In this document: piece after piece, positions 2,002-36,462 of the stretch
Position numbering within the stretch: the stretch's first letter is position 1
How the letters are laid out: every line of letters begins with the position of its first letter
From: a virus
Virus record (IMG/VR): IMGVR_UViG_3300017991_000091
Span: 1-64,000 of that record
DNA length: 64,000 bases
Direction: 5' to 3' (one strand)
Program-made: the position numbers and the translations under genes
The notes under the pieces: generated by a model
What the model saw: only the letters and a program-made list of their open reading frames with translations
Database searches by the model: none
What the model was told of the DNA's origin: nothing

Positions 2002-3639
2002 TTATAGAAGCAATCCTTTAGATGAAAGTTCTTCAAAACTTGCGCCACTGGTGGTAATTATTGTCCTGAGCCGGATATACTCCGCAGCTCTGGACGGCTT
2101 CACAAATACATCCACCCGAAGCTCCCCTGAATCAATAACTTCTGAAGTATTATTCGTAGTATCACATACCACATGAAATCCTTGATCTCCAGCTTCGGTC
2201 TGAAAAGCCCCTTGAGCAGATAATCCGCTTAAATATCCATTCAGCAAGGCTTCTACTCTAAACCGGGTTAAATCGTTGTTGGGTTCCATCACAAAGGACC
2301 GTAAAGATATGGCCATCGATTTTTCAATAACAATTAAGAGCCTTCGGACATTAACAGAACTTAAAGCAGAAGTTTTCTTCTGTAGAGTTTTCTGGCCCCA
2401 AATTACATGGCCCTCTCCCCTAAACGTCTGCAAAGGATTTATCTGAGCCGGGTAAAGGACATCCCGATCCCCCTGAGACAGAGGCTTTCCATCCGTTTTC
2501 GTACATTCAAGAACACCATCCAGAACCCCTCGATTGAATCCAGCCGGAGCAAACCAGACATTCTGGACATAATCATTGTAGGCATACTGGGCTGCAACAT
2601 ATCCGGACGGGGGAACTCGGATCAAAAGATCATTAAACTCATCATGAATCCGCGGCCAGATAGTATACAAGGCCGCATAGCTTGTATTGAAGTTCTGGGT
2701 TGTGTTCCGGAAAGTCAGCATACTAGTTGAGGAATTCGTGCTGGCGTAGGGCATATCCAGAACGGCAATACAGTCTGCCTTCGCTTCCGCAACGTCCCTT
2801 ATCTCCGTCTGTACCGTGACGCTGGTCTCTCCTCCATTAATAAGGATGCGGACATCTATATCATCTGGATTTTCAAACTCACCCCAACCCGTAACCAAAT
2901 CCGAAGCAGAAATATCACTACCGTCATCTCCACCTTCTAGATCTAACCGGGTAGCTTGTGCCTTAGGAACGACAGTATCAGCAAGAGCGGTATTGTCCTT
3001 AACGATAATATAGTTGCTGTAGCCGTTGATCTTATCCTCAAGATTGAGCTGCTTTCCATACCCATCGACTTTCGTTTTTCTAGATACCTTCCAGAGCTCA
3101 ACTTGAGACCAATTTCCATCATCATCTTGCCAGTATACAACAATTTCAAAAGTATACTGATCGGTAGCAACCGTTTCTGATCCATCCTTAACATTCTGAA
3201 TCTTAATACCTATCCGGTTGTCCCAAGCTCCAGGATCTGCACCCAGAATCTGGAACAAGGTATCATTAAGATACCCGGAAGCCGCTGTAAAGGAGTCCGT
3301 GGCCTGTCCGGCACTTAGAGCAGCATTGCTATACGAAGATGTGCTCTTCATAATATTGACACCACCCCAAAGCGCTCCATTATGCACCCGAAGACAATAA
3401 AGGGCATTCCCTTTCTTCAAGTATGCTAAGGCCGAATAATGGAAGAAATGTCCAGATGATGGATCTGGTTCTCCGTATTGTTCAATAAACTGTTGATCGC
3501 TAGTTATCAACCGAATATTATTTACATCCCCCTTTACCGAATATCCCACTATTGCCGCAGGGGCTGTTGCTACCCGGGGGACGATATCACTAAGATCAAG
3601 TTCCTGACTGTACACACCCGGAGACATGTAAATTGACAT
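2002..3639 (-). CDS. Contractile tail sheath protein
   Basis: A 545-residue protein beginning MSIYMSPGVYSQELDLS, the hallmark start of phage tail sheath subunits, followed by the usual early segment (APAAIVGYSVKGD, then FIEQYGEPD). The C-terminal third has the conserved sheath core: a segment around residues 430-450 (RRLLIVIEKSMA) and a final beta-rich region near VFVKPSRAAEYIRLR. These fit the T4 gp18 family, whose subunits polymerise round the tube and contract to drive DNA delivery. The length is within the family range. Neighbours are uncharacterised tail genes. Confidence 0.96.
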   Translation of the reverse strand: MSIYMSPGVYSQELDLSDIVPRVATAPAAIVGYSVKGDVNNIRLITSDQQFIEQYGEPDPSSGHFFHYSALAYLKKGNALYCLRVHNGALWGGVNIMKSTSSYSNAALSAGQATDSFTAASGYLNDTLFQILGADPGAWDNRIGIKIQNVKDGSETVATDQYTFEIVVYWQDDDGNWSQVELWKVSRKTKVDGYGKQLNLEDKINGYSNYIIVKDNTALADTVVPKAQATRLDLEGGDDGSDISASDLVTGWGEFENPDDIDVRILINGGETSVTVQTEIRDVAEAKADCIAVLDMPYASTNSSTSMLTFRNTTQNFNTSYAALYTIWPRIHDEFNDLLIRVPPSGYVAAQYAYNDYVQNVWFAPAGFNRGVLDGVLECTKTDGKPLSQGDRDVLYPAQINPLQTFRGEGHVIWGQKTLQKKTSALSSVNVRRLLIVIEKSMAISLRSFVMEPNNDLTRFRVEALLNGYLSGLSAQGAFQTEAGDQGFHVVCDTTNNTSEVIDSGELRVDVFVKPSRAAEYIRLRTIITTSGASFEELSSKGLLL

Positions 3640-3659: not shown

Positions 3660-4079
3660 TTATCTGAAATCCTTCTTCAAGTGAATTTCCACTATGAATG
3701 TTTCTGTATATTTCTTCCCTTTAAAGTTCACATACTCCCTTCGAATTGTACATCCCCACATTTTCTTTGTTAGGGAATTCTTTTTTATCTGCCATCGTCC
3801 AAATAATTTATTGACTTCTTCATCCGTAAGGCGTCGAATAAATTCCCTTTTATTAACTTTTTTCTTCCCCCAAAAGTTTTCTGGATCCTTATGATAGAAA
3901 ACCAGATCTCCCCATTTTTCAATTCTTCTTATCCAATCAAAGATGGTCTTTTCCGAAGTTAGGGGGCGAGGATCAGGAGTAGCCAGACCTACCAGATCTA
4001 CTGCTTCTCCAAGATCGAAGACCTCATCTATTCTACCTTCGATGAGTTTTTCCAGAGTTGATTGAATGAGATCAAACAT
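3660..4079 (-). CDS. Hypothetical tail-region protein
   Basis: A 139-residue, basic-rich protein starting MFDLIQSTLEKLIEG and having no membrane segment. It contains a tryptophan- and lysine-rich centre and a likely beta-strand C-terminus (YVNFKGKKYTETF). It lies between the sheath and a putative tail completion protein and overlaps the latter by one base (TAATG). I do not recognise the family; a role in tail assembly is inferred from position. Confidence 0.7.
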   Translation of the reverse strand: MFDLIQSTLEKLIEGRIDEVFDLGEAVDLVGLATPDPRPLTSEKTIFDWIRRIEKWGDLVFYHKDPENFWGKKKVNKREFIRRLTDEEVNKLFGRWQIKKNSLTKKMWGCTIRREYVNFKGKKYTETFIVEIHLKKDFR

Positions 4080-4987
4080 TAATCTTTCCTATAAATCACA
4101 CCATCTGCCGTTGTACTTGTTAATGACTCTGACAAAGTCAATTTAGTATATTCGCCAGAAAGGACTACTGCTGAAACCGTGTATGGACCATTATTGTTGG
4201 TAGATCCCTGAATGTTCACAGTCTCATCAACCGTAAACTCACTAACCCAATCTCCCTCAATAAGTATATAATTACCCGTCAGATCAATAGAAGATATATT
4301 ATATAAATGCCGACGAAAGAATCTCAAGGCCTGCTCTAATTCTGTGTCCTGGGAGGAGTCCTCCACAATTATAGTGGAATAATCCCCACTCTCCAAATCA
4401 TCTTTATCGTATACGGTTAACCGAATCTTCTCCACAACCCCCACATCTGAATCGGATTTTAGTATCCAACCATCTACCTTTATTGGCATTCTAAACTTAA
4501 ATATGACGCCCTTCGTGTATTTCTCCCCATATGTGCCCTCATCGACGATATCGCCAAAATGAAGGTCTGGAGTTATTTCATATGTATCTGAATAAGTAAG
4601 GGATATTTTTGGATAGTCCTGCTGCCAAAAAATATAATGCTCTATTGCTTCATAAAGTTTATCCACATCCTTACTCCAGAACCAGACATCGTAATTGATA
4701 TCGATGGGCTGTGCCTTTATGTGAGTATTCTTATCTACCCAAAGTCCTCTTCGAGCCAGGGGGGTTCTCTGCCTTGACCAACTTGGACCGAAAGAGGATC
4801 GGTAGAAGGAAATAAAATCTAGGAAGTTCTCCTGCCTATGCTCCGCCATCTCACGTTGTGCGACTTCGAGAGGAGCCTGAACTATAGCATATTTCTGGGC
4901 TAAATCATCCACTTCCAAAATAGTCTTAAATCTATTATATAGAAGGGATTTCAGACCTGTATCATATTCTTTCCCGATTGAAGCCAT
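4079..4987 (-). CDS. Putative tail completion / sheath-stabiliser-like protein
   Basis: A 302-residue protein with an N-terminal helical part (IVQAPLEVAQREMAEHR, then SWSRQRTPLARRG) and a beta-rich middle (INYDVWFWSKDVDKLYEAIEH) reminiscent of tail completion proteins of large myoviruses, in which a 'Y-D-V-x-x-[FW]' strand is followed by a helix. The C-terminal 90 residues are threonine- and valine-rich, like an appended Ig or beta domain. It sits next to the sheath gene. The assignment is a structural analogy, not a clear family match. Confidence 0.55.
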   Translation of the reverse strand: MASIGKEYDTGLKSLLYNRFKTILEVDDLAQKYAIVQAPLEVAQREMAEHRQENFLDFISFYRSSFGPSWSRQRTPLARRGLWVDKNTHIKAQPIDINYDVWFWSKDVDKLYEAIEHYIFWQQDYPKISLTYSDTYEITPDLHFGDIVDEGTYGEKYTKGVIFKFRMPIKVDGWILKSDSDVGVVEKIRLTVYDKDDLESGDYSTIIVEDSSQDTELEQALRFFRRHLYNISSIDLTGNYILIEGDWVSEFTVDETVNIQGSTNNNGPYTVSAVVLSGEYTKLTLSESLTSTTADGVIYRKD

Positions 4988-5222
4988 CTTTTCCTACAAT
5001 TACCAAAGAAGTAAAGAATGCTTGAAGAACCAGATCTTTATCCGGTCCGGTACCCCCAAAATCCTTTATCCATCCTTCTGCAAATCCCTCTGGCCCTATT
5101 CCTTCATCTCTGGCCCGGGCCAAGTAATCATTCAAAAGTTTCTGGGCCACCAAGAGAATTCCAAGCATCTTAAAGTATTCTTGCTCAGTCGTACAATTTA
5201 ACCGGACCACTATTCGTTTCAC
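4962..5222 (-). CDS. Hypothetical small protein
   Basis: An 86-residue protein beginning MKRIVVRLNCTTEQEYFKML. Its 3' end overlaps the start of the next gene by 26 bases and its start overlaps the previous gene's end, so all three are tightly coupled. Mixed helix and strand, no membrane segment. Not recognised. Confidence 0.6.
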   Translation of the reverse strand: MKRIVVRLNCTTEQEYFKMLGILLVAQKLLNDYLARARDEGIGPEGFAEGWIKDFGGTGPDKDLVLQAFFTSLVIVGKDGFNRERI

Positions 5223-5391
5223 AAATTTCTCCCAAATCGGAAGTTATTTCAACTTTGGATCTGATCTGATCCAGATTCTCCACTCGAAGATTATTGAAGG
5301 AGGATCCAGGAGATAGAGTTAATTTAGATCCATCCCCAACATTCAATTGGACATCTTCGTTAGATTTATTTTTGATCTTTTTGACTCTCAT
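5185..5391 (-). CDS. Small beta-rich hypothetical protein
   Basis: About 68 residues if translation begins at the ATG at 5391 (MRVKKIKNKSNEDVQLNVGD), which has an AAAGGGA ribosome-binding site eight bases upstream; an in-frame ATG further upstream (5439) lies deeper inside the preceding gene and is less likely. The sequence suggests a small beta barrel (residues such as LNVGDGSKLTLSPGSSF). Similar tiny beta proteins occur among phage head-tail genes; function is not known. Confidence 0.6.
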   Translation of the reverse strand: MRVKKIKNKSNEDVQLNVGDGSKLTLSPGSSFNNLRVENLDQIRSKVEITSDLGEICETNSGPVKLYD

Positions 5392-5824
5392 TAGTTTTTG
5401 TCCCTTTAGATTCATTCCAACCACCCGGGATACCCCCACGGGGAATACGGGGAGAACTGACTAAACCATGATCTGAAAATTCTCTCCATAAATCAACTGG
5501 AGAAGCCCATTCTAATCCTTTTGCATTCGGGAAAATGAACCTGGCGATGGTTCGTATCGCCGCGTTGCGGTCGTAACCAGCTCCCTTCATCCACTGGAAA
5601 AGATTTTCAATCCCAGGCTCCAAGGATTCTAGTTGTTCAACTTTTTTCAAAAGACCAGGATCATCTTCACCTTCATACCCACTCTTAAGTTCGCCGATGG
5701 CAGAGTTCCACCAGGAATCTAAGGGAACTGGATTGGAAAACATGGTGTCTTCTTCATTCACTTTTCTCACATTTTCAAATATTTCATCAAACACGTTAAA
5801 TTCTCTCCATTCTTCTTGGGACAC
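5366..5824 (-). CDS. Hypothetical structural-region protein
   Basis: A 152-residue, tryptophan-rich acidic protein; the start overlaps the upstream gene by 29 bases. It contains a helical section with GIENLFQWMKGAGYDRN and a flexible C-terminal tail (PRGGIPGGWNESKG) that carries an NESK string like the motif in the head-core proteins. Not recognised. Confidence 0.6.
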   Translation of the reverse strand: MSQEEWREFNVFDEIFENVRKVNEEDTMFSNPVPLDSWWNSAIGELKSGYEGEDDPGLLKKVEQLESLEPGIENLFQWMKGAGYDRNAAIRTIARFIFPNAKGLEWASPVDLWREFSDHGLVSSPRIPRGGIPGGWNESKGTKTNESQKDQK

Positions 5825-6284
5825 CTTTGAATGCTTTCACCACTACTGCATCGTGGAAACCCCTCACACTTAGATCGACCAATTCATATTCTGTTACATC
5901 CGTCGTATTATTTGGAATAAACTCCGGATTCACCTTAATATAACTTCTCTGGACCACATCAATGGATACATCAGTACCCGCTTCCGAGCCCTCTAAAGCG
6001 GTAGCAGTATTTGGCATCCAAATGACCATGGGAAGGTCATTCTCCACGTAGATCCCAAACTTCCGAAGTCTATACTTACTCGGATTCCAGACAATGAAGC
6101 ACTTTCCAGAATAAGATAGGTAAGTGAGATTATCCGGATGTTCGAAGATATCATTACCTTCATCCGCATTCAAGGAGGCAGTAGTTGGGATATATATTGT
6201 ACAGTCGATCCCCACCGAAGATAAAATGATATCTGTGTTTCGCCTAAGAGCATCGATTGTCTCTCTAGGTATCATTAGAGACAT
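5796..6284 (-). CDS. Putative neck/tail adaptor protein
   Basis: A 162-residue protein with an N-terminal helix (MIPRETIDALRRNTDIIL) followed by strands (VGIDCTIYIPTTASL; KCFIVWNPSKYRLRKFGIYVE) and a C-terminal beta segment ending GVPRRMERI. Proteins of this size with a GIDC-[ST/I]-[IL]-Y start and a W-N-P-S-K-Y string appear to me to recur in neck regions of large phages, but I cannot tie it to a named family. It overlaps the gene upstream by one base. Confidence 0.5.
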   Translation of the reverse strand: MSLMIPRETIDALRRNTDIILSSVGIDCTIYIPTTASLNADEGNDIFEHPDNLTYLSYSGKCFIVWNPSKYRLRKFGIYVENDLPMVIWMPNTATALEGSEAGTDVSIDVVQRSYIKVNPEFIPNNTTDVTEYELVDLSVRGFHDAVVVKAFKGVPRRMERI

Positions 6285-6529
6285 TACAGAATACCCCCTT
6301 TAGGATAGTCTTCCACTTTCTTAAAGGTCTCTTCCAATCGAGAACGTAGAGATTCTTTAATCCTTTCCCTCATCTTTTCATCCAAGGCCATAAACTCCTT
6401 CTGATGTTGTTCCAGAACACCGTTTACTTTAATAGCCATATTAGACAGGGCATCTGCATGCTCTTCCAAGGAAACTTTTTGATTCCGAACTTTTGTGGTT
6501 ATCTCTAATAGATCTTCAAATTCACTCAT
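6284..6529 (-). CDS. Small coiled-coil hypothetical protein
   Basis: An 81-residue, highly charged, almost wholly helical protein (heptad-like spacing through residues 15-75). It is joined to both neighbours by one-base overlaps. No motif identifies its role; a chaperone-like or assembly role would be a guess. Confidence 0.6.
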   Translation of the reverse strand: MSEFEDLLEITTKVRNQKVSLEEHADALSNMAIKVNGVLEQHQKEFMALDEKMRERIKESLRSRLEETFKKVEDYPKGGIL

Positions 6530-7437
6530 TATATTATTCCTTTGATTAGATCAACTTCACTAGGAGTTATTTCATTATCATCTTCTACAAACTTTTCGAG
6601 GTCCCTAATAATTCTAAGGTATTGGTAGCGGTTGACAAACTTAAACATGGCATTGATGTCCTTCCATTTTTTTGCCAGTTCAACATCATTCTTTGCCTCT
6701 TCTGGACTATTCGGTCTGGAAGCACCATGCCTGGTATCTACCCACTCTTTCCTTTTCTGGTAGAGTTTCTTAATGTCCTGTTCTATCTCCCCCAACTTAT
6801 TTCTGGACTTTAGTAGGAGTCTCTTTTGGTGCTCCTTAGGAAGATGCTTAACCGCATTTATAATTGTGTCATAGTCGATAACATCCCTTTTTAGTTCCCC
6901 CATAAGAAGGTCTGCATCCTGAACCATCTGATTTACTTGAGGAAGAATCGAACTAAAATCAGTATATGGATCGTAGTTTAGTGGAGTCAATTTAGGCCCA
7001 ACCAACCAGGTATCCTCTAAAACATCATACACAGCAACAGACATCAAATCCTGAGATGGGTTCGTTTGAACATATACTTCAATAGGATGTTCCCCGACAA
7101 AATTATCCAGATCTTCATTCTCCTTAAACCAATCCATCACTTCTTTAACTCTATCCTCATTCCATTTGCTGAAGTCCTCCGGGATGACATGAATATCCAA
7201 ATCAGTATCATCCACGTAAAGGTTACTTCCGAGAGATCCCACGATCCGAATTTCCCCGGCTTCCTGAAGGAGATCCTCCTCCGGATATTGATCCAGAAGA
7301 TTCAGAATCTTGTCCTTTACTTCCTCTCGAAGAAAATAGAATCCGTCTTCTTTTTCCCAAATATCTTCCGAGAGGTCGGCTCGTGGGAAATCAATACTGC
7401 TTTCCTGAACTACTTTATCAAAAAGACGATTATACAT
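6529..7437 (-). CDS. Nucleotidyltransferase-fold protein
   Basis: A 302-residue protein whose residues about 60-85 read IRIVGSLGSNLYVDDTDLDI, the signature of the polymerase-beta-like nucleotidyltransferase superfamily: a GS turn followed by D-x-D metal ligands. A third strand with acidic residues follows (HPIEVYVQTNP). The remainder is helical. Known relatives transfer a nucleotide to RNA, protein or drugs; the substrate here is unknown. It is odd to find such an enzyme among structural genes; it may modify a host component or be packaged. It starts with the MYNRLFD form of the recurring N-terminal pattern. Confidence 0.7.
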   Translation of the reverse strand: MYNRLFDKVVQESSIDFPRADLSEDIWEKEDGFYFLREEVKDKILNLLDQYPEEDLLQEAGEIRIVGSLGSNLYVDDTDLDIHVIPEDFSKWNEDRVKEVMDWFKENEDLDNFVGEHPIEVYVQTNPSQDLMSVAVYDVLEDTWLVGPKLTPLNYDPYTDFSSILPQVNQMVQDADLLMGELKRDVIDYDTIINAVKHLPKEHQKRLLLKSRNKLGEIEQDIKKLYQKRKEWVDTRHGASRPNSPEEAKNDVELAKKWKDINAMFKFVNRYQYLRIIRDLEKFVEDDNEITPSEVDLIKGII

Positions 7438-9106: not shown

Positions 9107-9259
9107 TTATTCCTTTTTATTTTTCTCAAGTATATTCTCTTCCAGATCCGAAACACCTTCCCGATCTTTATGGATAGTCCGGGATATTTTCTCGCTTTCC
9201 TCCAACCGGACTTCGACAAGACGAAGACCAAAAACATTTTCAAACAGATCCCCAAACAT
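9107..9259 (-). CDS. Small protein with MF..LFE start
   Basis: A 50-residue reading frame filling what would otherwise be a gap. It starts MFGDLFENVFGLRLVE with a one-base TAATG overlap with the stop of the upstream gene, and ends charged and helical. Its exact fit between two coupled genes and its N-terminal pattern support a real gene. Role unknown. Confidence 0.6.
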   Translation of the reverse strand: MFGDLFENVFGLRLVEVRLEESEKISRTIHKDREGVSDLEENILEKNKKE

Positions 9260-10281
9260 TAATCTTTCTCCACCGACATATCCACAAGAGAGGCTTTTTC
9301 TCCATCCACATCAGACCAATGGCCCTTCTTTCCTGTTCCAGTCCAATCTATTAGATCCTTGATTTTATCACTCACCAAGGCCGCCCGAGTCCAATGAGCG
9401 ACTTCCTTTCTCCTGCCGTTCTTAACTATGGGACGAAGTTCAATTGGAAGTCCAGAAAATCTAAGATTCAAAAGCTTATGAACCGCAGCAGGAACAGAAT
9501 TACTTTTCAGAATGTGATGAAGTATACTTACTGCCAATTGTTCCTTTGGAAGTATCTTCTTTCCATGTTCCAGGCACTGATCAAACATCCGACCTACCCC
9601 AGTTCCGGGGAACTTATCGCTGTATTCACCAAGAACTTTCAAAAGAAGTTTGTATACTTGCATATCTTTTGCTTCGAATATATTCATCTTCCTTCTTTCC
9701 AATTTGAGTTGTGATTTATAAGATTCAGGTTTTCTAGAATATCTGATCACATCATCCTTTAGATCTTCAATATCATCAGAAAAATCTGGGATTCTCTTTT
9801 CTAACTCAGACAAAAACTGAAGTTTCCCACTTAACCAACTCTTTTTCCAATTCTTCCAATAGGTTCGTATTGCTTCTTCAAATGGCTTAGGAAGTTCCCC
9901 GGCTTCCTGCCACATATATAAGAATCGATCGACATAGGAATCCATCGATTTTCCTTCCTTCATCTTTCTCTCCACCGGAAATCCTGTAATCCCCACTTTA
10001 TTAACTACTTCTCCAGCTCCCTTATTCAGTAAATCTGACTCTTCTGGATTCAATTGGACAAGAAGTTTTTGAAACTCCCCAACATGAACTATCTCCTCCT
10101 TTGCTATATCTCTAAGAATTTCTGCTGCTCTTGGGTCATCTGTTGCATCGGCCTGTGCTTCATAAAGGTGGGCCGCTTCTTCCTCCGCTGCTATATCCAG
10201 ACGGATTGCCCTAATCAACTCTTCTTTTGTTAGTCGTCTATCTGGAGTCATTCCAGAGAACGGGTTTACGAATTCTGCCAT
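9259..10281 (-). CDS. Ferritin-like (rubrerythrin/encapsulated-ferritin type) domain protein
   Basis: A 340-residue protein. Residues about 15-85 form a two-helix ferritin-like unit: AAEEEAAHLYEAQAD gives a first glutamate ligand and AKEEIVHVGEF gives the second-helix ExxH ligand set; the spacing resembles encapsulin-cargo ferritins and rubrerythrin-like proteins that bind di-iron centres and assemble as dimers. The remaining 250 residues (helical, then a region near RFSGLPIELRPIVKNG) are unassigned. It is embedded in virion genes. Encapsulin shells share the HK97 fold with phage capsids, which makes a packaged iron-binding protein thinkable, but this is inference. Confidence 0.7.
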   Translation of the reverse strand: MAEFVNPFSGMTPDRRLTKEELIRAIRLDIAAEEEAAHLYEAQADATDDPRAAEILRDIAKEEIVHVGEFQKLLVQLNPEESDLLNKGAGEVVNKVGITGFPVERKMKEGKSMDSYVDRFLYMWQEAGELPKPFEEAIRTYWKNWKKSWLSGKLQFLSELEKRIPDFSDDIEDLKDDVIRYSRKPESYKSQLKLERRKMNIFEAKDMQVYKLLLKVLGEYSDKFPGTGVGRMFDQCLEHGKKILPKEQLAVSILHHILKSNSVPAAVHKLLNLRFSGLPIELRPIVKNGRRKEVAHWTRAALVSDKIKDLIDWTGTGKKGHWSDVDGEKASLVDMSVEKD

Positions 10282-11165
10282 TACTCCAAATCCTCAATAG
10301 TATCTGCCAAAACCCGAAAGAATCTACTAGTAAATTTCCCCCCTTTAGGATATATGACAGATCGAACCCTTTTTATTTCATTACTCTCCTCTTCTATAGC
10401 ATTTAGAAGATCAGAATTATTACAAAAAATTGTTTCCGTAAGATGGTAATTTGTATCCACTAAGGCCTCAAAATAGAGATCTACCTTCTGATACCTGCTA
10501 TGAATCCTTGTCCCATACAGATAATCATAATTCTTGAAAACCCTATATGTATTTAATGGACTTTTATCCTTTATAGCCTCAATGATCATTTCCAGATTAC
10601 CTCTGTCATTTCCATATACTTCGAGTAGTCTGGAGTATAACTCTTGTATGTCCTTAGATCTCCTCTCCTGAGTTACGGCAACCTTCAAATTCTTCTTTGA
10701 ATGAAAAGAAACTACACCGAATCTCCATTTCCAAGTTCCGGAAGAAAGATTTAACTTTCGGAACTCTGCCTGATCATACATATTGGCCAGAGCTACCCGG
10801 AGTTCTTCTCGGAGATCATTCATTTCCTCTTCCATGGTTTCGTTCAAAAGAAACCCTAAATTAAGGTATGTATTATTGCTAATTGTATTGTCAAAAATGG
10901 AACAGAAGGATTCCCAATGTTCATTCGGGACCAGAACTCGAAGATCATTTTCAAATTGGACCTCCCTTTCATCATCCTGCTCCAGAATTTCAATCTTCCA
11001 ATCTTTTTTCTTCTTGGCCAGATCCGCAACTTTTGCTTTTACCATCCCCAGATGTGCCGGAAGGAAGGAAACATCATCAGATGTGGTTGTTTCAAAAATT
11101 GGGGAAGTTTCCACCTTTTTCCGGAAATGATTATCCATTCGATCTAGAGTTTCAAAGTACCCCAT
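10281..11165 (-). CDS. Hypothetical virion-region protein
   Basis: A 294-residue protein (MGYFETLDRMDNHFRKKV) with alternating helix and strand, no membrane segment and no recognisable catalytic motif. Its stop and start overlap neighbours by one base. It sits between the ferritin-like protein and a SWIM-type zinc protein. Not recognised. Confidence 0.65.
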   Translation of the reverse strand: MGYFETLDRMDNHFRKKVETSPIFETTTSDDVSFLPAHLGMVKAKVADLAKKKKDWKIEILEQDDEREVQFENDLRVLVPNEHWESFCSIFDNTISNNTYLNLGFLLNETMEEEMNDLREELRVALANMYDQAEFRKLNLSSGTWKWRFGVVSFHSKKNLKVAVTQERRSKDIQELYSRLLEVYGNDRGNLEMIIEAIKDKSPLNTYRVFKNYDYLYGTRIHSRYQKVDLYFEALVDTNYHLTETIFCNNSDLLNAIEEESNEIKRVRSVIYPKGGKFTSRFFRVLADTIEDLE

Positions 11166-12027: not shown

Positions 12028-12561
12028 CTAAGATCCTAAATTTCCTAACAATCGGAAGTTTCTGGCCTTTCCAATATCCGTGATTCCAACACTGGAAACC
12101 CATAATCCCCATCCCTTGGACTCCTCCCTCACTGCCTTCAAAAGATTTTCCCGAAGAGTGCTTCTACTATTCTTGAGTTCTTCTAAGGTGTGGCCTTCTA
12201 TATATTCCTCAATTGCAACCAGTGCAGTTGTCTGTAGGCTCTCATCATAATCGAGAACTTCCAGAAGTGCCTTCACCGCATTCCTGACATAATATCTGAT
12301 CGATGCACTCACCATTATATCGATATTATCCTTAGTTAGAATAGATTGAGATCGGATATCAACTACCTGTGGTTTGATCTTACAAACTTCCTCTTCCATA
12401 ACTATAGGCAGAAGCCAGTACCAATTTCCTGGTTTTGTTTCCGTGATCCAACAACCTCCCCAGGGCTTCATGGTTTGTCTGAATCCACTTTCATCAGGTC
12501 GGATTATCATTATCCTAGGGATAAATGAGGTTATTTTTTCTAGGAGGGTTTCCAACCACAT
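12028..12561 (-). CDS. SPFH/Band-7 domain protein
   Basis: A 177-residue protein that is nearly all Band-7: a beta segment (VDIRSQSILTKDNIDIMV, about residues 66-83), then SIRYYVRNAVKALLEV, a long helix with EEYIEGHTLEEL, and VREESKGWGLWVSSVGITDI near the end, which is the classic stomatin/prohibitin order. Cellular members are anchored by an N-terminal hydrophobic helix and form ring cages on membranes; here only a short amphipathic start (WLETLLEKITSFIPR) precedes the domain and the C-terminal coiled coil is missing. It is the first gene of its operon, downstream of a TATAAATA box. Confidence 0.8.
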   Translation of the reverse strand: MWLETLLEKITSFIPRIMIIRPDESGFRQTMKPWGGCWITETKPGNWYWLLPIVMEEEVCKIKPQVVDIRSQSILTKDNIDIMVSASIRYYVRNAVKALLEVLDYDESLQTTALVAIEEYIEGHTLEELKNSRSTLRENLLKAVREESKGWGLWVSSVGITDIGKARNFRLLGNLGS

Positions 12562-14389: not shown

Positions 14390-15202
14390 TTATCCTATTC
14401 TATCCAAATAAGGTCTATCTATTGTTTTCTTTAATTCTTCAACTGAAAGTTTGTTGTTGGAACAATGAAAGGATCCACCTACTTCCTGGGGCGCTCCTTC
14501 TAGAGAAGTTAGAGAGTTGAAGGAACACTCAAAGAAACCACCTACTGTCTGAGGTGCTCCTTCTAGAGAAGTTAGTAAGTTGTAGGAGCAATCAAAGAAA
14601 CCACCTACTGTCTGAGGTGCTCCTTCTAGAGAAGTTAATTTGTTGTCAGAACACAAAAAGTTTCCACCTACTGTCTGAGGTGCTCCTTCTAGAGAAGTTA
14701 ATTTGTTGTCAGAACACAAAAAGCCTCCGCCTACTGTCTGAGGGGCTCCTTCTAGAGAAGTTAGAGAGTTGTTATAACAATCAAAGAAACTACCTACTGT
14801 CTGAGGGGCTCCTTCTAGAGAGGTTAGAGAGTTGAAGGAGCAATCAAAGTTTCCACCTACTTCCTGAGGTGCTCCTTCTAGAGAAGTTAGAGAGTTGTTG
14901 TAACAATAAAAGCCTCCACCTACTGTCTGAGGTGCTCCTTCTAGAGAAGTTAGATTATTATGAGAACAATAAAAGCCTCCACCTACTTCCTTGAATTTGA
15001 TGGGTAACTTAGTTAGACCCCTTTTGGATAAATCCACATCTCCACTGGCACTCCAAGTGCCATCTGGATTTTCAGTACAGACGGACTTGATGTAGTCCAT
15101 TAATCTGGATTCTACTTCTTCTTGAGAAATGGGCTGAAAAAGTTCTTCGAATTCAGATTTACTGATTTCAGTAGGAATGTTTTCGTATAGTTCGTTGAAC
15201 AT
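14390..15202 (-). CDS. Leucine-rich-repeat protein (paralogue B)
   Basis: A 270-residue protein with the same head and tail as the gene at 142-645, differing by a handful of residues, and eight instead of three 21-residue repeats (LTSLEGAPQxVGG..., residues about 84-251). The near identity of head, tail, repeats and the 20 bases upstream of the start shows a recent segmental duplication; the copies lie on the same strand 14 kb apart. The repeat positions after VGG and around CSxN vary most, as expected for a changing binding face. Possible surface or adhesin-like role, unproven. Confidence 0.85.
   Translation of the reverse strand: MFNELYENIPTEISKSEFEELFQPISQEEVESRLMDYIKSVCTENPDGTWSASGDVDLSKRGLTKLPIKFKEVGGGFYCSHNNLTSLEGAPQTVGGGFYCYNNSLTSLEGAPQEVGGNFDCSFNSLTSLEGAPQTVGSFFDCYNNSLTSLEGAPQTVGGGFLCSDNKLTSLEGAPQTVGGNFLCSDNKLTSLEGAPQTVGGFFDCSYNLLTSLEGAPQTVGGFFECSFNSLTSLEGAPQEVGGSFHCSNNKLSVEELKKTIDRPYLDRIG
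14450..14953 (-). repeat. Eight tandem 63-bp coding repeats
   Basis: Eight 63-bp units in phase with the reading frame, each including the bases encoding TSLEGAPQ, highly alike to each other and to those at 202-390. Confidence 0.9.
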
Positions 15203-16424: not shown

Positions 16425-18453
16425 CGAATTTAATTCCTTTATACTGGGCCCATGTTTATGCAGCTTTGTTCATACTATTATACTGATCTGAACAAAGTTC
16501 TTTTACCATTTCCCTGATGTGTGTTGACCCAGCCATCAGGTAATTATCACCCTTATAACCCATCGTGTAGTAGTTGCTTGACTTGAAAGGATTCTGGATA
16601 ACCGTACGTCCATTCAACTCACCAATCTTAATCGGACCAGTAGGCGGAGTCTTATTCAGACCCGGTGCCGGAACAAAATCAGGCTGAAGTTGCTTAATGA
16701 CACGAGCAACATTGTTGCCACAAATGATAAAGTTCGCGATTGCCCTCTTGGTCTTTGCGAAGATGTTGTTACTCAATCTGTTACTTTTTGTGACCTACCT
16801 AAGTAGGCGGATGAGTCATTTCTGCTCATCTCTGCATGTTTCCATACAGCTCGGACTATTTCTTCATCCACTTGGGATGTCTGCCATGGCCAATGGAATC
16901 GCTTCCATCAACTTAGTCTCTACACTATTTATATCTGTTCTATCCATAATGGATTTTCGATATTCTAGTACGGAATTGTCCTCAGCATCATCTGTTAGGA
17001 GTTTCTCCGTTTAAGCAGATTTTCGATATTCATTGCTGAATAAAGAGGCAATATATTTACCTTCTTCGAACCTATCTTTCAACATATGCTTACGCCAAAT
17101 CCATGCCTCGCCATTTGAAAGAGTAGTATCGAACACTGTGGTTCCCGTAGCAGCTCCGCTGCCACTTGCAGCTTCGTCGATTAAATCCAGCCCGACTTGG
17201 TCGACTGTGAATTTACATTCTGTTGCTTGTTAACCTATTATCCAAATCATTTAATAGGCGGATGAGTCATTTCTGCTCATCTCTGCATGTTTCCATGCAG
17301 CTCAGACTATCCCTTCAACTCTATTGAGTTGGCAGCCGTATCTTCCCCAGTCACCTGAGGAAAAGTAGTCGTTACACCATTTTTATTAAAAAGAAAATCC
17401 TCTGTCCAAATTAGGAAAGTCATATTATACTTCTTTTTAATAATCTGGCTCGGTATTGCCTTCAGATTTCTCTGATCAGGTTTTCACCGAATTGAGCTGC
17501 TTACGAGACTAATTTAAGCTAATCTCGTGACCAAGATACTTTACGACCTCTTTTTCGAGATCTACACCGTGAGCTTTCATCATATCCAAAGCCGCCCCAA
17601 CCGAATACCGCGATCTCACTGGGAAGTCAATAGCTTCAAGTGAGCTCTGGGTAATCGAGAAATCGACCTCAGGAACACCATCCCGATTGTTATACGAATC
17701 AACCGGTTTATCGTACTGATAGTCGTACGTAATATAAATGGTCGTTCCACTCGTCAACCCTGAAAACGTCACATTATAAACTCCAGCCGCAGTGACCGTA
17801 CCAGAAGTGACATAGTCTCCAGTAACAGTACCGCTGGCATTAGAAGTACCCAGGGTAGTCCGCGTCGATCCACTAACGGACTCGAACTTAATGTTCTCAA
17901 GATTAATCAGACCAGGAGCGTACTCCAAGGTACCGGACTTAGTTCCGTCACTAGTACCAATAGTCTCATCAACCACTCGAGCGATCGCATACATCCGGCC
18001 GGACTTTGAAGTCGCATGGCCAGTCGTAGCCGACAACATCGTGTCACCCGCAGTAACCGCACCCTTGGTGCTTCCATACTTCACGTCGAAGTAGAAGACC
18101 GCGGCCGTTCTCCGGTCCATCGCCTGCACAATTCCAACCTCGGGTAGCACTAAGGAAGGAAGTAGTGCCGCTATCACAGGCAATTGGACCCCGAGGAAAC
18201 TTACAGCATCCTCAGTCGTGGTCTCTGACAAGGTCGGTTTACTGGAACGCATGGCTGCATCATCAATAGCGTTCCGGAGACACTGAGCAACCACACGCTG
18301 CTCATGCAGAGTCATCTCTCTGCCTTTCTTATCCTGAACGGATTCGCTCACTGCCGAAAGATACCGCTTAATAGTCGGATCACTCAGAAGGGCGTCCCGT
18401 TCCGTCTCGATTTGTTTCATCCGAGACTCAACAATTTGCTTACCAGCTAACAT
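15321..18453 (-). CDS. Major capsid protein, T4 gp23-like, interrupted by three group I introns
   Basis: The gene is four exons: 17522-18453, 17059-17215, 16527-16773 and 15321-15472 (complement, joined in that order), giving 495 residues. Exon 1 starts MLAGKQIVESRMKQ and ends in AHGVDLEKEVVKYLGHE, exon 2 supplies KFTVDQVGLDLIDEA, exon 3 the segment AKTKRAIANFIICG plus YYTMGYKGDNYLMAG, exon 4 MYCPYIPLFATPTL. These line up in order with T4 gp23 blocks (HGIDAEAELSNILSTEI, GEGNFIIAS, FTVGYKGPNE, APYVAL). Lengths 932+157+247+152 keep the frame at every junction. The start has AAGGAG seven bases upstream. It forms the HK97-fold capsid shell and is likely cleaved near its N-terminus by the protease encoded upstream. 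Confidence 0.93.
15473..16526 (-). ncRNA. Group I intron 3 of the capsid gene (with endonuclease frame)
   Basis: The 5' site follows GCTGGGT, which pairs with GCCCAGT about 85 bases into the intron, ending in the diagnostic U-G pair. Core elements in order: P (AATTCGGTGAA), then after the endonuclease frame Q (AATACCGAGCC), R (GTGTAGAGACTA) and S (AAGATATAGTCC, the textbook form). The intron ends in G at 15473. Joining gives GGG TTC ATG TAC, restoring AGFMYCPY. Confidence 0.9.
16774..17058 (-). ncRNA. Group I intron 2 of the capsid gene
   Basis: A 285-nt intron without a protein frame. The 5' exon end GAAGAAGGT pairs with GCCTCTTT inside the intron (one bulged A, terminal U-G). P (AAACGGAGAAACTCC), Q (GACAATTCCGTACTA), R (GTAGAGACTA) and S (AAATAGTCC) are present. 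A P9-side segment of about 50 nt is nearly identical to that of intron 1. It ends in G before AGT AAC, giving EEG-SNNIF. Confidence 0.88.
17216..17521 (-). ncRNA. Group I intron 1 of the capsid gene
   Basis: A 306-nt intron. Exon end ACGAGAT pairs over seven positions with GTCTCGT in the intron, closing with U-G at the splice site. Core elements: P (AATTCGGTGAAAACC), Q (AATACCGAGCC), R (GTAACGACTA), S (GGGATAGTCT), then P9-side hairpins around CTGCATGGAAACATGCAG. It ends in G; joining gives GAG ATT AAA TTC (EIKF). P and Q match intron 3, the P9 side matches intron 2. Confidence 0.9.
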
Positions 18454-18490: not shown

Positions 18491-21400
18491 TTACATCATA
18501 CCGTCGAGTGCATTATCCACATCATCTTTCACCCTTGCCTGTTCAGGATCAATCTGACGATGGTTCCTTATGCGAACTTCCTTGATTCCTTCAGAATGAA
18601 GTGCATTCCGGCGTTGGATATCCTTAGTTTTTTCCAGGATATCCTCCACGTCACCAATGGATTCGCATCCATCGAGAAGTGCTCGAGTATTTTCCCCAAT
18701 ACTCAGACCAATCTCAGCAAGTCTACGATCTATGTATTCACTGAGGACCTTTGATTTTCCTTCAGTGATACCTAGCGCTTTAGACTCTTCAACTATTTCC
18801 TCATATTCCTCCTTTACTATCTTAATACGATTTTGGTTACTTTCAACAATAGCATTTACTTTATTCTTATGTGTTTCTGAAATGGTTAAGATTTGCTCTT
18901 TCCCTTTCTTTTTCTCCTCATCTAACTTAGATTTAGATTCCTCCAAGGATTCTCTCAGACTGTGGGCCTCTTTGGCCTTTTCCTCCAACTTAGTCCGAAG
19001 AGCGGATACCTCATCATAAACCTGGAGGGATTCCTTCATCTTCTTCATAAGCATCTTGAGCCTCAATTTAGAATCCGAACTTTCGTTCTTTTGTGAATCC
19101 AACTCATTGGAAAGTTCCTCAATGGTTTCTAAGGCCTTTTCCTTTTCTGCTCTGGAGATGGCCTCTTGGATTTTAATGTCTTTGGATTCTATCGGTCTTT
19201 CCTCATAACCCCCATCGAACAGGAGCTCTTGTAGGAAATTAATAATCTTTATTGGATCATTTATGCCAACTTTGGTAACCCCAGCGCCAGACCAAGTTCC
19301 TTGAGCTAATACATTTTCCTCATCCTCAATAGTAAAACTCCCATCTTCCTTAAAGCTGGCCACGTAATCATATCCGGAAGAAGAACTAAATCTATAAACA
19401 GTGCCCTCATCCGATTGTTCTTTAATTAATTTACTTTCTTTAGATTCACTATATTGGTGAGATCCAGTTTCTGATAGAATATTAATAAACCCATCCCCAA
19501 CCTGGAATTCATCAATAATTTTAACTCCCCCACCTTTAGTTGTAAGAATTTCTTGTTCATCAGCATAAATGATATAACCGTCGTCATCTTTGGTCAACTC
19601 ATATTTTGCACCAGAAATTGGGTCACTCCAAAGGAATCCATCCTTTGCTTCATTAACAGATTCATTTTTAGGCTCATCCCCTTTCACCTTCTCCACAGCC
19701 GTGTGGAAGTCCTCCCAATACCTCTTATCAGAAGAAGATACTTTTTCACCAGCAAGAATCTTGTCAGTAATATTTGAAATTCTTTTCTTGATGGCCGCCT
19801 TGTCCTTATTCCTCAGATCAGTTTTGAATCCCTCATCAATAGATTCATCTACCTTAGATTCCCATTTCTTCCTATTCAAAGGAATAATCTGATATTCATC
19901 TTCAGAGTACCATTGCATTTCATCCTCATTATCCGATCCAGTAACTTCTACCGCCATTACTCCTTCCTGTTGTTCCTCTTTTTTAGCAACGGTAGCCTCA
20001 GGAACAACTGTAGTATTTCCTTCTTTATCCTTTATCTGAACGATGTCTCCTACATCAAATCCTTCTGTAATTTCAACCTTCTCACCAATCTTTACGAAGT
20101 CCTCATCATCTAAGGATTCCCATGAAATATGTTTCTCAGAAGCGGGTTCACCTGGTTGTGTTACAGTAACTCCAGAAGCGTCTGAATTTTTCACAATCCA
20201 AGTTTCCTCACCTTTCTTCAGAACGTTTCCTTGTGCAACCTTAGAGCTGACTCCTCCTTCAGTAGGAAGAGATTTTTCCTCAATATCAACATCCATATCT
20301 TTCAACTTGGACTCAATATCTACCAACTCCTTTCGCTCATCCTCAGTACATTTTCCAGCTTCTTTTTTGGCCAGGAGTTCTTCCTTACGAGCCACGAGTT
20401 GATCCATTCCTTCCTTCATCTTTTTCTTCTTGGGGTGGGACTTACTACATTTCTCTTCCAGATCCTCTAAAGTTAAACCATCCTCAAGATCCGCTCTATC
20501 CAATTCCATCATCTTACGGAATCTTTGAAGATCTTCAGAATCAGCAAACTTCAAATCATCCTTAGTTATGACAATTCTTCCTTTATGGCTGACCGTCTCC
20601 TTAGTCTCCTTTTTCTCCTCCATCTCAGGCTCAAAATCTCCAACCGGTTCTGCCTCAGGAACATCTATATCCATCTCCTCCTTCGGCCAGACATGAACTT
20701 TTCCAGAGTCTACTTCTATAGTAGCAACCTCTGCACCTTCGATAGCAATGTCTCCTTCTTTTCCTGGGAGTCCAACCAGAACTCTTCCTTCATCAATCTT
20801 AATTATCTTGACCTCCTGATCACCATAAAGGAGTTCTGTTCCTTCTTTGATCTTATCTTCTTTAAGAAGGGATTCGACGGTGGTTTTAGATTCCTTGGAT
20901 TCCTCTGTCTTAGAAATAGACTCAAACAACTGCTTAGCAAAGTCCCTCTCTGCCGATGTAGCACTCTTGTTCTCCATCTCGGCCTGAACCGTAGGTAGTA
21001 CATTCCTTTTAATAGAGGCAGGTAAAACTCCGAACGTGCTCGGGTCCGCAGTAAAATCAGTCGTGCGGTAAACATATGATTCCGGAATCACCCTACTGAA
21101 CTTTCCGGTGTCATCCTCAGACTCTTCCAGGTCTCCCTCTGCCCGAGTGCTAACACCAACACCACACTCAGCCCGGATTAAACTATCCACAATTCTACCC
21201 ATAGGAGTATCCAGAACGTCCATGGTCTGCCAAACATTATTCTCATCCATCCACATCTTATGGATAACATGAGAAGTAAGTTGAAGATCAGATTGAGTCT
21301 CCGTAGGATGTTCCGCCTGACCAAATAGTCTTCGATTCTGAATCATTTCCTGAAGAGTTTCATCGGCAAGGACTTTATCAAAGACCCCTCTCTCATAGAT

Positions 21401-21532
21401 GCGATTGTTTGCATTCCTTTCTCCCAGATTACATATATTGTAAGTAACCCGGCAAAGGACAGCATCCGGAAGGTTTCCCTGATCCTTCTCTTCAATTATT
21501 GGTTTATTCTTCAGATTTTCAATAATATTCAT
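18491..21532 (-). CDS. Prohead protease fused to a long scaffold/core region
   Basis: A 1013-residue protein. Residues 1-215 form a T4-gp21-type maturation protease: NANNRIYERGVFDKVL, then FGQAEHPTE (candidate catalytic histidine) and GVGVSTRAEGDL (candidate serine). The rest is acidic and low in aromatics, with KOW-like small beta segments (TELLYGDQEVKIIKIDEG; KGEETWIVKNSD) and a long coiled coil (about 815-960) like a scaffold/core protein. ESK-type motifs are scattered between segments. Phages of the T4 type usually encode protease and scaffold separately, so this is a fusion. It would self-assemble as the prohead core, then cleave itself and the shell. It lies directly upstream of the capsid gene in transcription order. 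Confidence 0.8.
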   Translation of the reverse strand: MNIIENLKNKPIIEEKDQGNLPDAVLCRVTYNICNLGERNANNRIYERGVFDKVLADETLQEMIQNRRLFGQAEHPTETQSDLQLTSHVIHKMWMDENNVWQTMDVLDTPMGRIVDSLIRAECGVGVSTRAEGDLEESEDDTGKFSRVIPESYVYRTTDFTADPSTFGVLPASIKRNVLPTVQAEMENKSATSAERDFAKQLFESISKTEESKESKTTVESLLKEDKIKEGTELLYGDQEVKIIKIDEGRVLVGLPGKEGDIAIEGAEVATIEVDSGKVHVWPKEEMDIDVPEAEPVGDFEPEMEEKKETKETVSHKGRIVITKDDLKFADSEDLQRFRKMMELDRADLEDGLTLEDLEEKCSKSHPKKKKMKEGMDQLVARKEELLAKKEAGKCTEDERKELVDIESKLKDMDVDIEEKSLPTEGGVSSKVAQGNVLKKGEETWIVKNSDASGVTVTQPGEPASEKHISWESLDDEDFVKIGEKVEITEGFDVGDIVQIKDKEGNTTVVPEATVAKKEEQQEGVMAVEVTGSDNEDEMQWYSEDEYQIIPLNRKKWESKVDESIDEGFKTDLRNKDKAAIKKRISNITDKILAGEKVSSSDKRYWEDFHTAVEKVKGDEPKNESVNEAKDGFLWSDPISGAKYELTKDDDGYIIYADEQEILTTKGGGVKIIDEFQVGDGFINILSETGSHQYSESKESKLIKEQSDEGTVYRFSSSSGYDYVASFKEDGSFTIEDEENVLAQGTWSGAGVTKVGINDPIKIINFLQELLFDGGYEERPIESKDIKIQEAISRAEKEKALETIEELSNELDSQKNESSDSKLRLKMLMKKMKESLQVYDEVSALRTKLEEKAKEAHSLRESLEESKSKLDEEKKKGKEQILTISETHKNKVNAIVESNQNRIKIVKEEYEEIVEESKALGITEGKSKVLSEYIDRRLAEIGLSIGENTRALLDGCESIGDVEDILEKTKDIQRRNALHSEGIKEVRIRNHRQIDPEQARVKDDVDNALDGMM

Positions 21533-21547
21533 ATCTATATCCTCAAC

Positions 21548-23413: not shown

Positions 23414-23434
23414 TTCTTTATCCTTCCTTTTGTA

Positions 23435-23764: not shown

Positions 23765-23774
23765 TTTGTATCCC

Positions 23775-23978: not shown

Positions 23979-23979
23979 A

Positions 23980-24545: not shown

Positions 24546-24563
24546 AAGATAAATCGAACCAGC

Positions 24564-25058: not shown

Positions 25059-25061
25059 CTT

Positions 25062-34668: not shown

Positions 34669-36462
34669 TTACCTGGGATCCCCCATCTCGGATACTTCCG
34701 TTCTCCTCTGTTCATCCTCAAGTGTCATTTGACGAGAGGGCTTCTCATCTCTTTTATGTTCCTTTATTACTGCACTTCCATATCGATCCTTCCAATCCTT
34801 CTCCCATCTGTTCTGGAAAAGTAGGGTTGATCTTTCTCTCAGATATGGACCAATATCTCTCCCTTCCTTAAGTAACTTCCTAGTAGTCAAAGGCAAGAAG
34901 GACATTAAATCCGTATTGTAAATAGGATACCTCTTATACTCATTCTCCTTACTTTCGCCCACAATTATGGTCTGAGCCCCCTTCTTGAACTGAGATAGAT
35001 CGAAGTCCTCTAACTTTAAGATCTTCTGATTTAGATAATTGAATATCTTTTCTTGGTCCAAATCAGAGTCCACTTTTTCCAACATATCCATAAATCGTTC
35101 AATGGTTTCCGTTCCTTCGGCCAGATTTTCTTGAAGTTGCTTTTCCTCTGCCGTACTTGGACTAGACATGTTCACTTCAAACAGTGCTGGATCTGGATCT
35201 AAGTTCTGGTAGGCCAGATGAATTTGACACAGTCTCTTAATCCCCATAATAAGGGCTCTTTGTAATCTACGAGAGTTTCTTGCGAAACCAATGTCCAATT
35301 GTTCAATGGCCTCAGATCCTAAGGACCCGGTGGCCTCATCCACATATCCGCCCAGTAAGGAAAGTGGTGTACTTAGAGCACAAGCCAATTGTTGCTTAAG
35401 TTCTTCCACATCCACAATCCAACGGATATCCGGATTCCCACCTATCTCATCTATGGCCAAATCATTAGTATCTGGAAGAGGTAGGAAAAGATCTTCTGTT
35501 ACTCCGAATGGATTTTCCTTTGACGAAAAATTAGGGTCACTATCGGATGTATTAATCGTCCTGGCCCTTTTTAGTGTATTTGCTATTTGATCAATAAGGG
35601 AATCAAGCATTTCCGCATTATTTGCATCAACCTTCAGTGTATAAATGTACCTAAGTATTCCTCTTGTCATCCTGGCCAGAAGTAAACTATCCTCTGCCAT
35701 CCTCAATCTTCTATACGTAGGAAGTGCATCTAATATGAGGGAAGTGCCATATCTGGTTGAGGCCTGTCTAGTATCATGCCCTAACATTAAGGACATCGTT
35801 TTGAACTCTGTGTAGGAGGGATCCCCAAACTGGGGTCTGGTTCGCTTGGCTCCCAAAAGGCGGAAATGTACATACTTCCAGGGCTCAATTAAGGCCTGTT
35901 CACTTGTATTTGAGCTCTGGCCTAAGGGAGTATCATAAAATCCTACTAAAATACCATCATGCTCTACCCTACTAATTTCAATGGGATTCCTATCATCCTG
36001 AATGGATACTACTCCTAGATTAGGAAGTCCTTTTACCTCTACAAACAAATCACCAAAGGCCGCAACTGTCCAAGCCCAGTCATAGATCTTTTCTTCTATA
36101 CCTATATCATCCAGGAAGTTCGATAGTATCTTTTGGTACTTTGAACTTTCACTCGTTACCCAGACGGACGCGTTATGAATCGGCGACATTGTGCAGGAAG
36201 ACGTCGCGTAAAGTCTCACTGCTGCTGCCATAAGTGCATGGTCAAGTGATCGGTTTAGTTGTGCAGTGTAACGTTGACGGTCCCACGTAACACTTACATC
36301 AGCCTGGATATCCCTTTGCAATTGGCTGAAAGTAATTCCCACCCTTCGGATGAGTTCCTTTTCCTTCTGGGTGAGCTTTCCTTGATCCAGGACGTCTGCT
36401 GAAATGGTTGGGGACTTTTTGGTTAAGTCCCTAAGGAGGGTAAATGGATTATATATCTCCAC
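34669..36462 (-). CDS. Portal vertex protein (T4 gp20-like)
   Basis: A 597-residue protein with the T4-gp20-type portal layout: an N-terminal helical region (SQLQRDIQADVSVTWDRQRY), AAVRLYATSSCTMSPIHN, wing strands, a long helix with GSEAIEQLDIGFARNSRRLQ and a stem/crown region rich in charged helices. It forms the dodecameric DNA channel at the capsid vertex. It contains one ESKENE string. As the first gene of the minus-strand block it is transcribed from the divergent region at 36463-36745. Confidence 0.93.
   Translation of the reverse strand: MEIYNPFTLLRDLTKKSPTISADVLDQGKLTQKEKELIRRVGITFSQLQRDIQADVSVTWDRQRYTAQLNRSLDHALMAAAVRLYATSSCTMSPIHNASVWVTSESSKYQKILSNFLDDIGIEEKIYDWAWTVAAFGDLFVEVKGLPNLGVVSIQDDRNPIEISRVEHDGILVGFYDTPLGQSSNTSEQALIEPWKYVHFRLLGAKRTRPQFGDPSYTEFKTMSLMLGHDTRQASTRYGTSLILDALPTYRRLRMAEDSLLLARMTRGILRYIYTLKVDANNAEMLDSLIDQIANTLKRARTINTSDSDPNFSSKENPFGVTEDLFLPLPDTNDLAIDEIGGNPDIRWIVDVEELKQQLACALSTPLSLLGGYVDEATGSLGSEAIEQLDIGFARNSRRLQRALIMGIKRLCQIHLAYQNLDPDPALFEVNMSSPSTAEEKQLQENLAEGTETIERFMDMLEKVDSDLDQEKIFNYLNQKILKLEDFDLSQFKKGAQTIIVGESKENEYKRYPIYNTDLMSFLPLTTRKLLKEGRDIGPYLRERSTLLFQNRWEKDWKDRYGSAVIKEHKRDEKPSRQMTLEDEQRRTEVSEMGDPR

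Follow-up and report, generated by a model that had tools for sequence, protein, structure and literature searches.

On balance, window protein P0001 appears to be a late phage protein in which an EncFtn ferroxidase domain is fused in front of a second late protein, here called X, with the ferroxidase domain carried in or on the virion head. The window is the whole stretch of DNA that was analysed; it covers 64 kb of a virus record of 84,029 bases, possibly a fragment, and its features are collected in Table 1. The best reading of P0001 together with its relatives is that phages have repeatedly recruited the EncFtn ferroxidase into the virion, where the HK97-fold head would replace the encapsulin shell. 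EncFtn proteins are among the main encapsulin cargoes, and a head-tied EncFtn would put the pairing of shell and ferritin on the virus side, either as an existing or as a re-arisen arrangement.

Table 1. Features of P0001 and of the surrounding virion genes (window coordinates; a slash marks the putative cleavage point in leaders)
Feature	Position	Strand	Evidence or remark
P0001, whole ORF, 340 aa, ATG start	9259..10281	(-)	EncFtn domain, unmatched middle, late protein X
EncFtn-type ferroxidase domain, residues 1-100	9982..10281	(-)	NF058679, PDB sequence matches, AlphaFold, Foldseek
E33 ... Y40, di-iron site (ExxAxxxY)	10162..10185	(-)	aligned with R. rubrum E32, Y39
E62, E63, H66, di-iron site (EExxH)	10084..10098	(-)	aligned with R. 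rubrum E62, H65
Middle region, residues 101-203	9673..9981	(-)	
Late protein X, residues 204-340	9262..9672	(-)	46% identity to stand-alone gene in L108, L109
Gene upstream of P0001, unnamed function	10281..11165	(-)	homologue precedes stand-alone X in L108, L109
Late gene downstream of P0001	7437..9104	(-)	leader ends RINE/S; zinc-ribbon-like motifs
Late gene with leader MYNRLFDKVVQE/SSIDFP	6529..7437	(-)	homology to relatives from E/S, leader differs
Tail sheath protein	2002..3639	(-)	tblastn to annotated sheaths
gp23-type major capsid protein gene, in pieces	16456..18453	(-)	PF07068 at 17452-18186, 16528-16788
Prohead protease (S77, gp21 type) within 1013-aa ORF	18491..21532	(-)	PF03420 1.3e-10, phrog_207 1.7e-29
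Portal protein (gp20 type)	34669..36462	(-)	PF07230 6.1e-23, phrog_1497 2.3e-25

The EncFtn domain and its di-iron residues

The first-pass annotation had assigned a ferritin-like iron-binding domain to the entire reading frame, based on an N-terminal helix pair with E...EExxH ligands resembling those of encapsulated ferritins. The reading frame is exact, but the iron-binding part is confined to roughly residues 1-100; two thirds of P0001 are non-ferritin, which had been overlooked, and the C-terminal part is the phage late protein X. Both the family and the ligand motif that had been proposed are confirmed. NF058679, the EncB_fam model for encapsulin ferritin-like cargo, covers residues 1-104 with 92.9 bits (E 1.3e-26), above its curated cut-off of 90 bits. 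TIGR04535 scores 63.8 bits (E 1.3e-17), under its cut-off of 125, Pfam Rubrerythrin and COQ7 are above their cut-offs, and Pfam Ferritin and Pfam EncFtn-like (13.5 versus a cut-off of 27) are below. In the PDB, the sequence matches P. furiosus EncFtn (5n5e, 5.8e-15), the EncFtn-encapsulin fusion of the same species (2e0z, 1.4e-14) and EncC of M. xanthus (7s8t, 3.3e-12).

An AlphaFold model computed with 18 relatives reaches a pLDDT of 95-98 across residues 21-80 and is poor beyond the first 100 residues. It predicts helices at residues 19-46, 50-77 and 80-96, which corresponds to the two antiparallel helices and short third helix of EncFtn. The top Foldseek ranks are likewise EncFtn structures, namely 5n5e (TMt 0.85), 7s8t, 7s5k (TMt 0.90) and 5da5, with TMt values to EncFtn structures of up to 0.85-0.92. 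The Foldseek probability is 1.00, and the E-values go no lower than 1.6e-3, since non-EncFtn sequence makes up two thirds of the query.

The ferroxidase residues of R. rubrum EncFtn are E32, Y39, E62 and H65 (PMC5012862), and P0001 keeps all four of them as E33, Y40, E63 and H66. The full motif, ExxAxxxY-x21-EExxH, is found in 1 of the 91 window ORFs, P0001 only, and is not a chance occurrence. A lack of ligand conservation among homologues had been named in advance as an argument against the ferritin-like reading. Instead, equivalents of E33, Y40, E62, E63 and H66 are present in 15/15 viral rows and in 80/80 cellular rows (the best 80 of 354 confirmed relatives), although this conservation is partly by construction, since the pattern of the first viral scan fixed E33 and Y40, and those of the later scans E62-E63. 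The exact motif spacing is found in 52 of 54 viral entries; some of the 54 come from near-identical contigs, which leaves 48 distinct proteins, and L003 and L171 are truncated at contig ends. At the entry site, E31 and E34 of R. rubrum correspond to A32 and E35 in P0001, so the first of the pair is replaced. Ala also occupies the E31 position in 76 of the best 80 of 354 cellular relatives, therefore this mismatch is not decisive.

Composition of P0001 and the late gene block

The ATG of P0001 overlaps the upstream stop codon by one base (TAATG) and is preceded by a GGAG site, which places the gene in a tightly packed late operon. Its proposed position inside the virion gene block is borne out by the tail sheath, gp23-type capsid, S77 protease and portal genes on the same strand. 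This set of genes is indicative of a contractile-tailed T4-like phage that is distant from isolated phages; among the matches listed, the portal is at most 25% and the sheath up to 37.6% identical to those of isolated phages.

Residues 206-334 of P0001 are 46% identical to X, which is a separate gene of 134-136 aa in the related phages L108 and L109, located directly after a homologue of the 10281-11165 gene. In the window phage, EncFtn and about 100 further residues precede X within one reading frame. No relative of residues 101-203 was found. This middle region contains an in-frame ATG (M113) behind a AAGGAAGGA-type ribosome site, which could be the internal start of a shorter product. The X homology begins directly after NIFE203/A204, a candidate prohead-protease site at which cleavage may take place; T4-like prohead proteases cut after glutamate (PMC9026906, PMC5694885). 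X has no match under 0.05 in PHROGs, and its predicted structure has a pLDDT of 43.9.

Related phages of the same clade shed light on the history of this locus. On the 7 kb contig L003, EncFtn is a separate gene at the same locus, 61% identical over the 66 residues present, and is followed by orthologues of window 6529-7437, 5796-6284, 5185-5439, 4962-5222, 4079-4987, 3660-4079 and the sheath. The orthologues are 39-64% identical to their window counterparts, with 64% for the sheath and 35-36% for the small 4962-5222 paralogues. In L108 and L109, EncFtn is absent at the homologous locus and X is present. These three are the only clade contigs, among those fetched, that reach the locus. Judged from this gene content, presence in the window and L003 and absence from L108 and L109, EncFtn is an acquired but retained element of the locus.

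Proteolytic leaders are common among the late proteins of the clade. The homologues of 6529-7437 have a common sequence from E/SSIDFP on, and their leaders differ: the window has MYNRLFDKVVQE, L100 has MKQLLEQLLKDAQKIRE, L097 has YSRLFDTVVFE, and in L003 ...RYRYESVDE is internal. This fits leader removal by the prohead protease of the 18491-21532 gene. The clade leader pattern occurs in 12/47 late ORFs (shuffled mean 2.0) and 1/38 early ORFs of the window, in 37/171 clade ORFs (shuffled mean 7.6) and in 12/458 ORFs of cellular loci (shuffled mean 14.2); the leader patterns used here (A and B) were drawn up after inspecting leaders, and the counts are descriptive rather than tests, with the cellular control, the shuffles and T4 as independent checks. 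The pattern search detected neither a clade-type nor a T4-type leader at the N-terminus of P0001.

Two further leader readings were rejected. An internal leader at P0001 residues 113-127 (MDSYVDRFLYMWQE/A) is attractive by eye, but a profile based on 46 distinct window and clade leader segments places it outside the top six positions; the best interior profile score of P0001 is equalled or beaten by 20/40 other late proteins. Generic [LIVMFYW]xE[SAGT] sites within the first ~25 residues are weakly enriched in the window (late 15/47, shuffled mean 6.8; early 8/38, shuffled mean 4.7), and their enrichment in the clade is unconvincing (31/167, shuffled mean 23.1).

Several other features of the window were observed. 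Group I introns (Rfam RF00028) interrupt the capsid gene twice, at 16832-17068 and at 17283-17544, and the ORF at 15321-16424 (-) combines a zinc finger and a homing-endonuclease-like start with an end that resembles capsid C-terminal sequence. Within the virion block, 12028-12561 (-) is SPFH/stomatin-like by eye, with a weak PHROG "lipoprotein" match (E 7.7e-4). The late proteins encoded at 142-645 and 14390-15202 (-) are leucine-rich-repeat-like paralogues whose leaders (MFNELYENIxTEISKSEFE) are almost the same, and their relatives occur in L104, L105 and L109. The very long acidic late proteins of 18491-26252 (-) have repeated E/SK-type sites (NESK, ESKTNE) and look like prohead-protease polyproteins. 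At 40846-42384 (+), an ORF contains a long array of near-identical [NS]QV[RWEG]-type repeats in which several frames are open.

EncFtn genes in other phages

Alignment scans of IMG/VR recovered 52 distinct EncFtn contigs (14, then 22 more, then 16 more), the largest of which has 411,618 bases. Among isolated phages, the domain was found in one, Eggerthella phage LE2-3. Single-protein scans or tblastn with P0001 as the query revealed no relatives in IMG/VR or the phage collection; such searches with two other phage EncFtn queries and one further search likewise gave none, and a portal-fused EncFtn query gave one relative, LE2-3.

A T4-type capsid-targeting leader opens 9 of the 54 viral EncFtn entries (L011-L015, L116-L118 and L174), with MSRLSNYLTE/S and MSKFKDYITE/S as examples. 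All nine hold the register of the T4 IPIII leader, whose first ten residues are enough for packaging, with residues 4 and 7 involved in targeting and residues 8 and 10 in processing (PMC9026906). Among cellular EncFtn proteins (best 80 of 354) the leader is present in 1/80, and this lone match, L017, is probably an artefact of a start placed upstream of the usual MPEF start. The T4-type pattern is found in 24/78 ORFs of L011-L015, where shuffling gives 0.40 on average (maximum 3), and in 3/458 ORFs of cellular loci. In the T4 control, ipII and ipIII are positive, ipI is missed (pattern A) and the other CDS give 0/28. In L013, the EncFtn gene lies between those of the head-tail adaptor Ad2 (phrog_211 2.7e-21) and the head closure protein Hc2 (phrog_679 2.5e-14). 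An Ad2 homologue is present in all seven leader loci examined and an Hc2 homologue in six of them, with both genes in 6/7.

Other phages connect EncFtn to particle proteins by fusion or by gene order. The C-terminal part of tailed-phage portals points towards the head interior. In L127 (4474-7131), a single 885-aa frame comprises a portal (PF06381 8.3e-77), EncFtn (509-567) and topoisomerase IB (2.1e-26), and in L133 a portal (phrog_146 1.3e-43; 32.3 bits with PF06381, slightly below the 33.8 cut-off) has EncFtn at its C-terminus; both fusion genes come after terminase. EncFtn lies immediately upstream of the portal gene in L005, where the portal identity was taken from the same region of L004, and precedes a DUF2213 domain beside the portal in L145. 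In L163 it follows a leader-bearing domain, which L154 encodes separately. The LE2-3 domain (Pfam 21.7, just under the cut-off, with a different motif spacing) is located inside the 948-aa protein QXJ36676.1, encoded in the interval between the portal and capsid genes. The particle-protein fusions and head-packaging tags of these relatives suggest that some virus heads carry iron-handling enzymes; for P0001 itself, packaging is an inference.

The same fusions to portal or other late proteins could also be expected if EncFtn were a structural oligomerisation module, with a ring or dimer gathering late proteins and iron being incidental, and EncFtn rings do assemble in a metal-dependent manner (PMC5012862). 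This alternative is improbable, however, because the ferroxidase residues are all kept in very diverged phage copies, even if the scan patterns partly fixed them, and a pure scaffold needs none.

Additional targeting elements may exist in two phages. On the 411,618-base contig L122 (IMGVR_UViG_3300033489_000001, 5585-6740), the leader MNPRKAFEQALAK is common to adjoining genes and has a second copy behind the domain in the EncFtn protein, possibly representing a further class of capsid-targeting leader. In L006 (10001-10420), the EncFtn tail STVKEMIERSFDED resembles, by eye, the N-terminal leaders MSIKDTVEKMFESGD of its neighbours, and is possibly a C-terminal targeting element.

A survey of neighbouring genes covered 41 of the 52 contigs, with two ORFs per side and none longer than 1300 aa, and included 149 of 153 proteins, four of L002 being omitted. 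The commonest named PHROGs among the 149 neighbours are Ad2 (7), endonuclease VII (4), HNH (4) and Hc2 (4), followed by head morphogenesis, terminase, head protein and portal (3 each) and many HNH families. Pfam detected LigD_N (3) and ribonucleotide reductase (2), and certain relatives are without virion genes nearby. Given these mixed neighbours, a number of the phage EncFtn genes probably act inside the cell.

Due to the metabolic neighbourhoods of some relatives, a role in the infected cell stays a serious, albeit rather unlikely, rival for P0001 as well. P0001 would then act only there, as a late-made ferroxidase that lowers Fe2+ and oxidant levels, and would be an auxiliary metabolic gene placed among late genes by chance. 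The missing leader of P0001 is consistent with this, as are the many HNH endonucleases and the metabolic genes adjoining some phage EncFtn genes (e.g., ribonucleotide reductase, 2/149 neighbours) and the 66/80 cellular loci (best 80 of 354) without an encapsulin-like ORF in the fetched stretch. In addition, phages have already been found to carry other genes of the superfamily, namely Dps and Mn-catalase (PMC8008677, PMC6669764). Nevertheless, P0001 is stop-start coupled within the virion block and fused to the late protein X, L003 has EncFtn at the same late locus, and other relatives possess head leaders or portal fusions, all of which argue for the virion.

The EncFtn tree (93 rows, 76 columns, duplicates L005 and L009 omitted) largely lacks resolution, and its long branches meet. 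The virus label needs three changes on it, two of which are forced by starred branches, and a single origin of the viral EncFtn sequences is not supported by this tree.

Encapsulin shells and the proposed role in the phage head

Encapsulin (Linocin_M18) was not found in the 84-kb record of the window phage, which is possibly a fragment, nor in any of the phage EncFtn records searched (0/41), with controls detected in both cases. Similarly, the encapsulin-targeting C-terminal peptide (GSLK type) is absent from P0001 and from the viral EncFtn proteins checked (0/14). In the cellular set (best 80 of 354), 14/80 relatives have an encapsulin-like ORF in the locus, and the targeting-peptide pattern is present in 8 of these 14 versus 1 of the 66 others. 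The 66/80 cellular loci (best 80 of 354) without an encapsulin-like ORF in the fetched stretch, a count limited by contig ends, suggest that the EncFtn family can probably work without an encapsulin shell. The linkage in 14/80 cellular relatives (best 80 of 354) would be compatible with phage EncFtn serving as cargo of a host encapsulin; yet the targeting tail is missing in P0001 and in 14/14 viral proteins, while 8/14 of the encapsulin-linked cellular ones match, which makes this explanation very improbable. The first-pass annotation had also conceived of a packaged protein, by way of the HK97-type shell that heads share with encapsulins. Its support comes from the relatives, through the leaders (9/54) and the L127 and L133 portal fusions, whereas P0001 has neither leader nor targeting peptide, and its 84-kb record has no encapsulin.

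If the domain is indeed packaged in the head, two EncFtn subunits would meet to form the di-iron site, as they do in encapsulins, and this site would oxidise Fe2+ to Fe3+ using O2 or peroxide. EncFtn cargo oxidises Fe2+ at a two-subunit site, and the iron is not kept soluble without a shell (PMC8346489, PMC5012862). The phage head, having the same HK97-type shell fold, could stand in for the encapsulin shell. In the favoured reading, the prohead would supply the shell that EncFtn needs; foreign proteins bearing the T4 leader do enter T4 heads (PMC3012670, PMC9026906). As a possible second step, the prohead protease may cut at the candidate NIFE203/A204 site and free EncFtn from X. The presumed benefit would be the removal of Fe2+ and oxidant or peroxide around the packaged or just-injected DNA. 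Alternatively, the ferroxidase might be delivered to the next host along with the DNA, as T4 delivers IPI to its host (PMC3012670).

A broader proposal, which we regard as tentative, is that tailed-phage heads are encapsulin-like iron compartments into which EncFtn is loaded by means of capsid-targeting leaders or of fusions to portal or late proteins, with several lineages having arrived at this independently, and that the virion brings an active iron-oxidising enzyme, and possibly iron, to the next host. Iron in virions is reportedly debated as the 'Ferrojan Horse' idea, and EncFtn in heads, if true, would provide a concrete mechanism for it. Since an isolated phage, Eggerthella phage LE2-3, has a relative of the domain, the packaging of EncFtn in heads is testable now. 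No description of EncFtn in phages was found in the open-licence papers searched. Encapsulins are thought to have descended from HK97-type phage shells, and an encapsulin survey discarded phage neighbourhoods as false positives (PMC8346489), thus phage-linked EncFtn cases could have been filtered out.

Comparison with known systems places P0001 closest to the encapsulated ferritins (R. rubrum Rru_A0973, P. furiosus PFC_05175, M. xanthus EncB and EncC), with which it has in common the NF058679 family, the two-helix fold and the E/Y/E/H residues. Unlike them, it lacks an encapsulin partner and a C-terminal targeting peptide, its fusion partner is a phage late protein, and its gene belongs to a virion operon. 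The Dps and Mn-catalase of Gratiaviridae and Lactobacillus phages are phage-encoded ferritin-like proteins as well, but represent different families within the superfamily. In Lactobacillus phages, the Dps gene is placed near replication genes, and the passages on these proteins mention neither virion-protein fusions nor head-packaging leaders (PMC8008677, PMC6669764). T4 IPII and IPIII begin with a 10-residue, E-terminated leader of the kind that opens the EncFtn of phage relatives (PMC9026906), while P0001 itself is without a leader and its mature domain is a predicted ferroxidase. Finally, the P. furiosus EncFtn-encapsulin fusion 2e0z likewise has EncFtn at the N-terminus of a protein linked to an HK97-type particle; its partner is the shell protein itself, and that of P0001 is X, for which the model is of low confidence.
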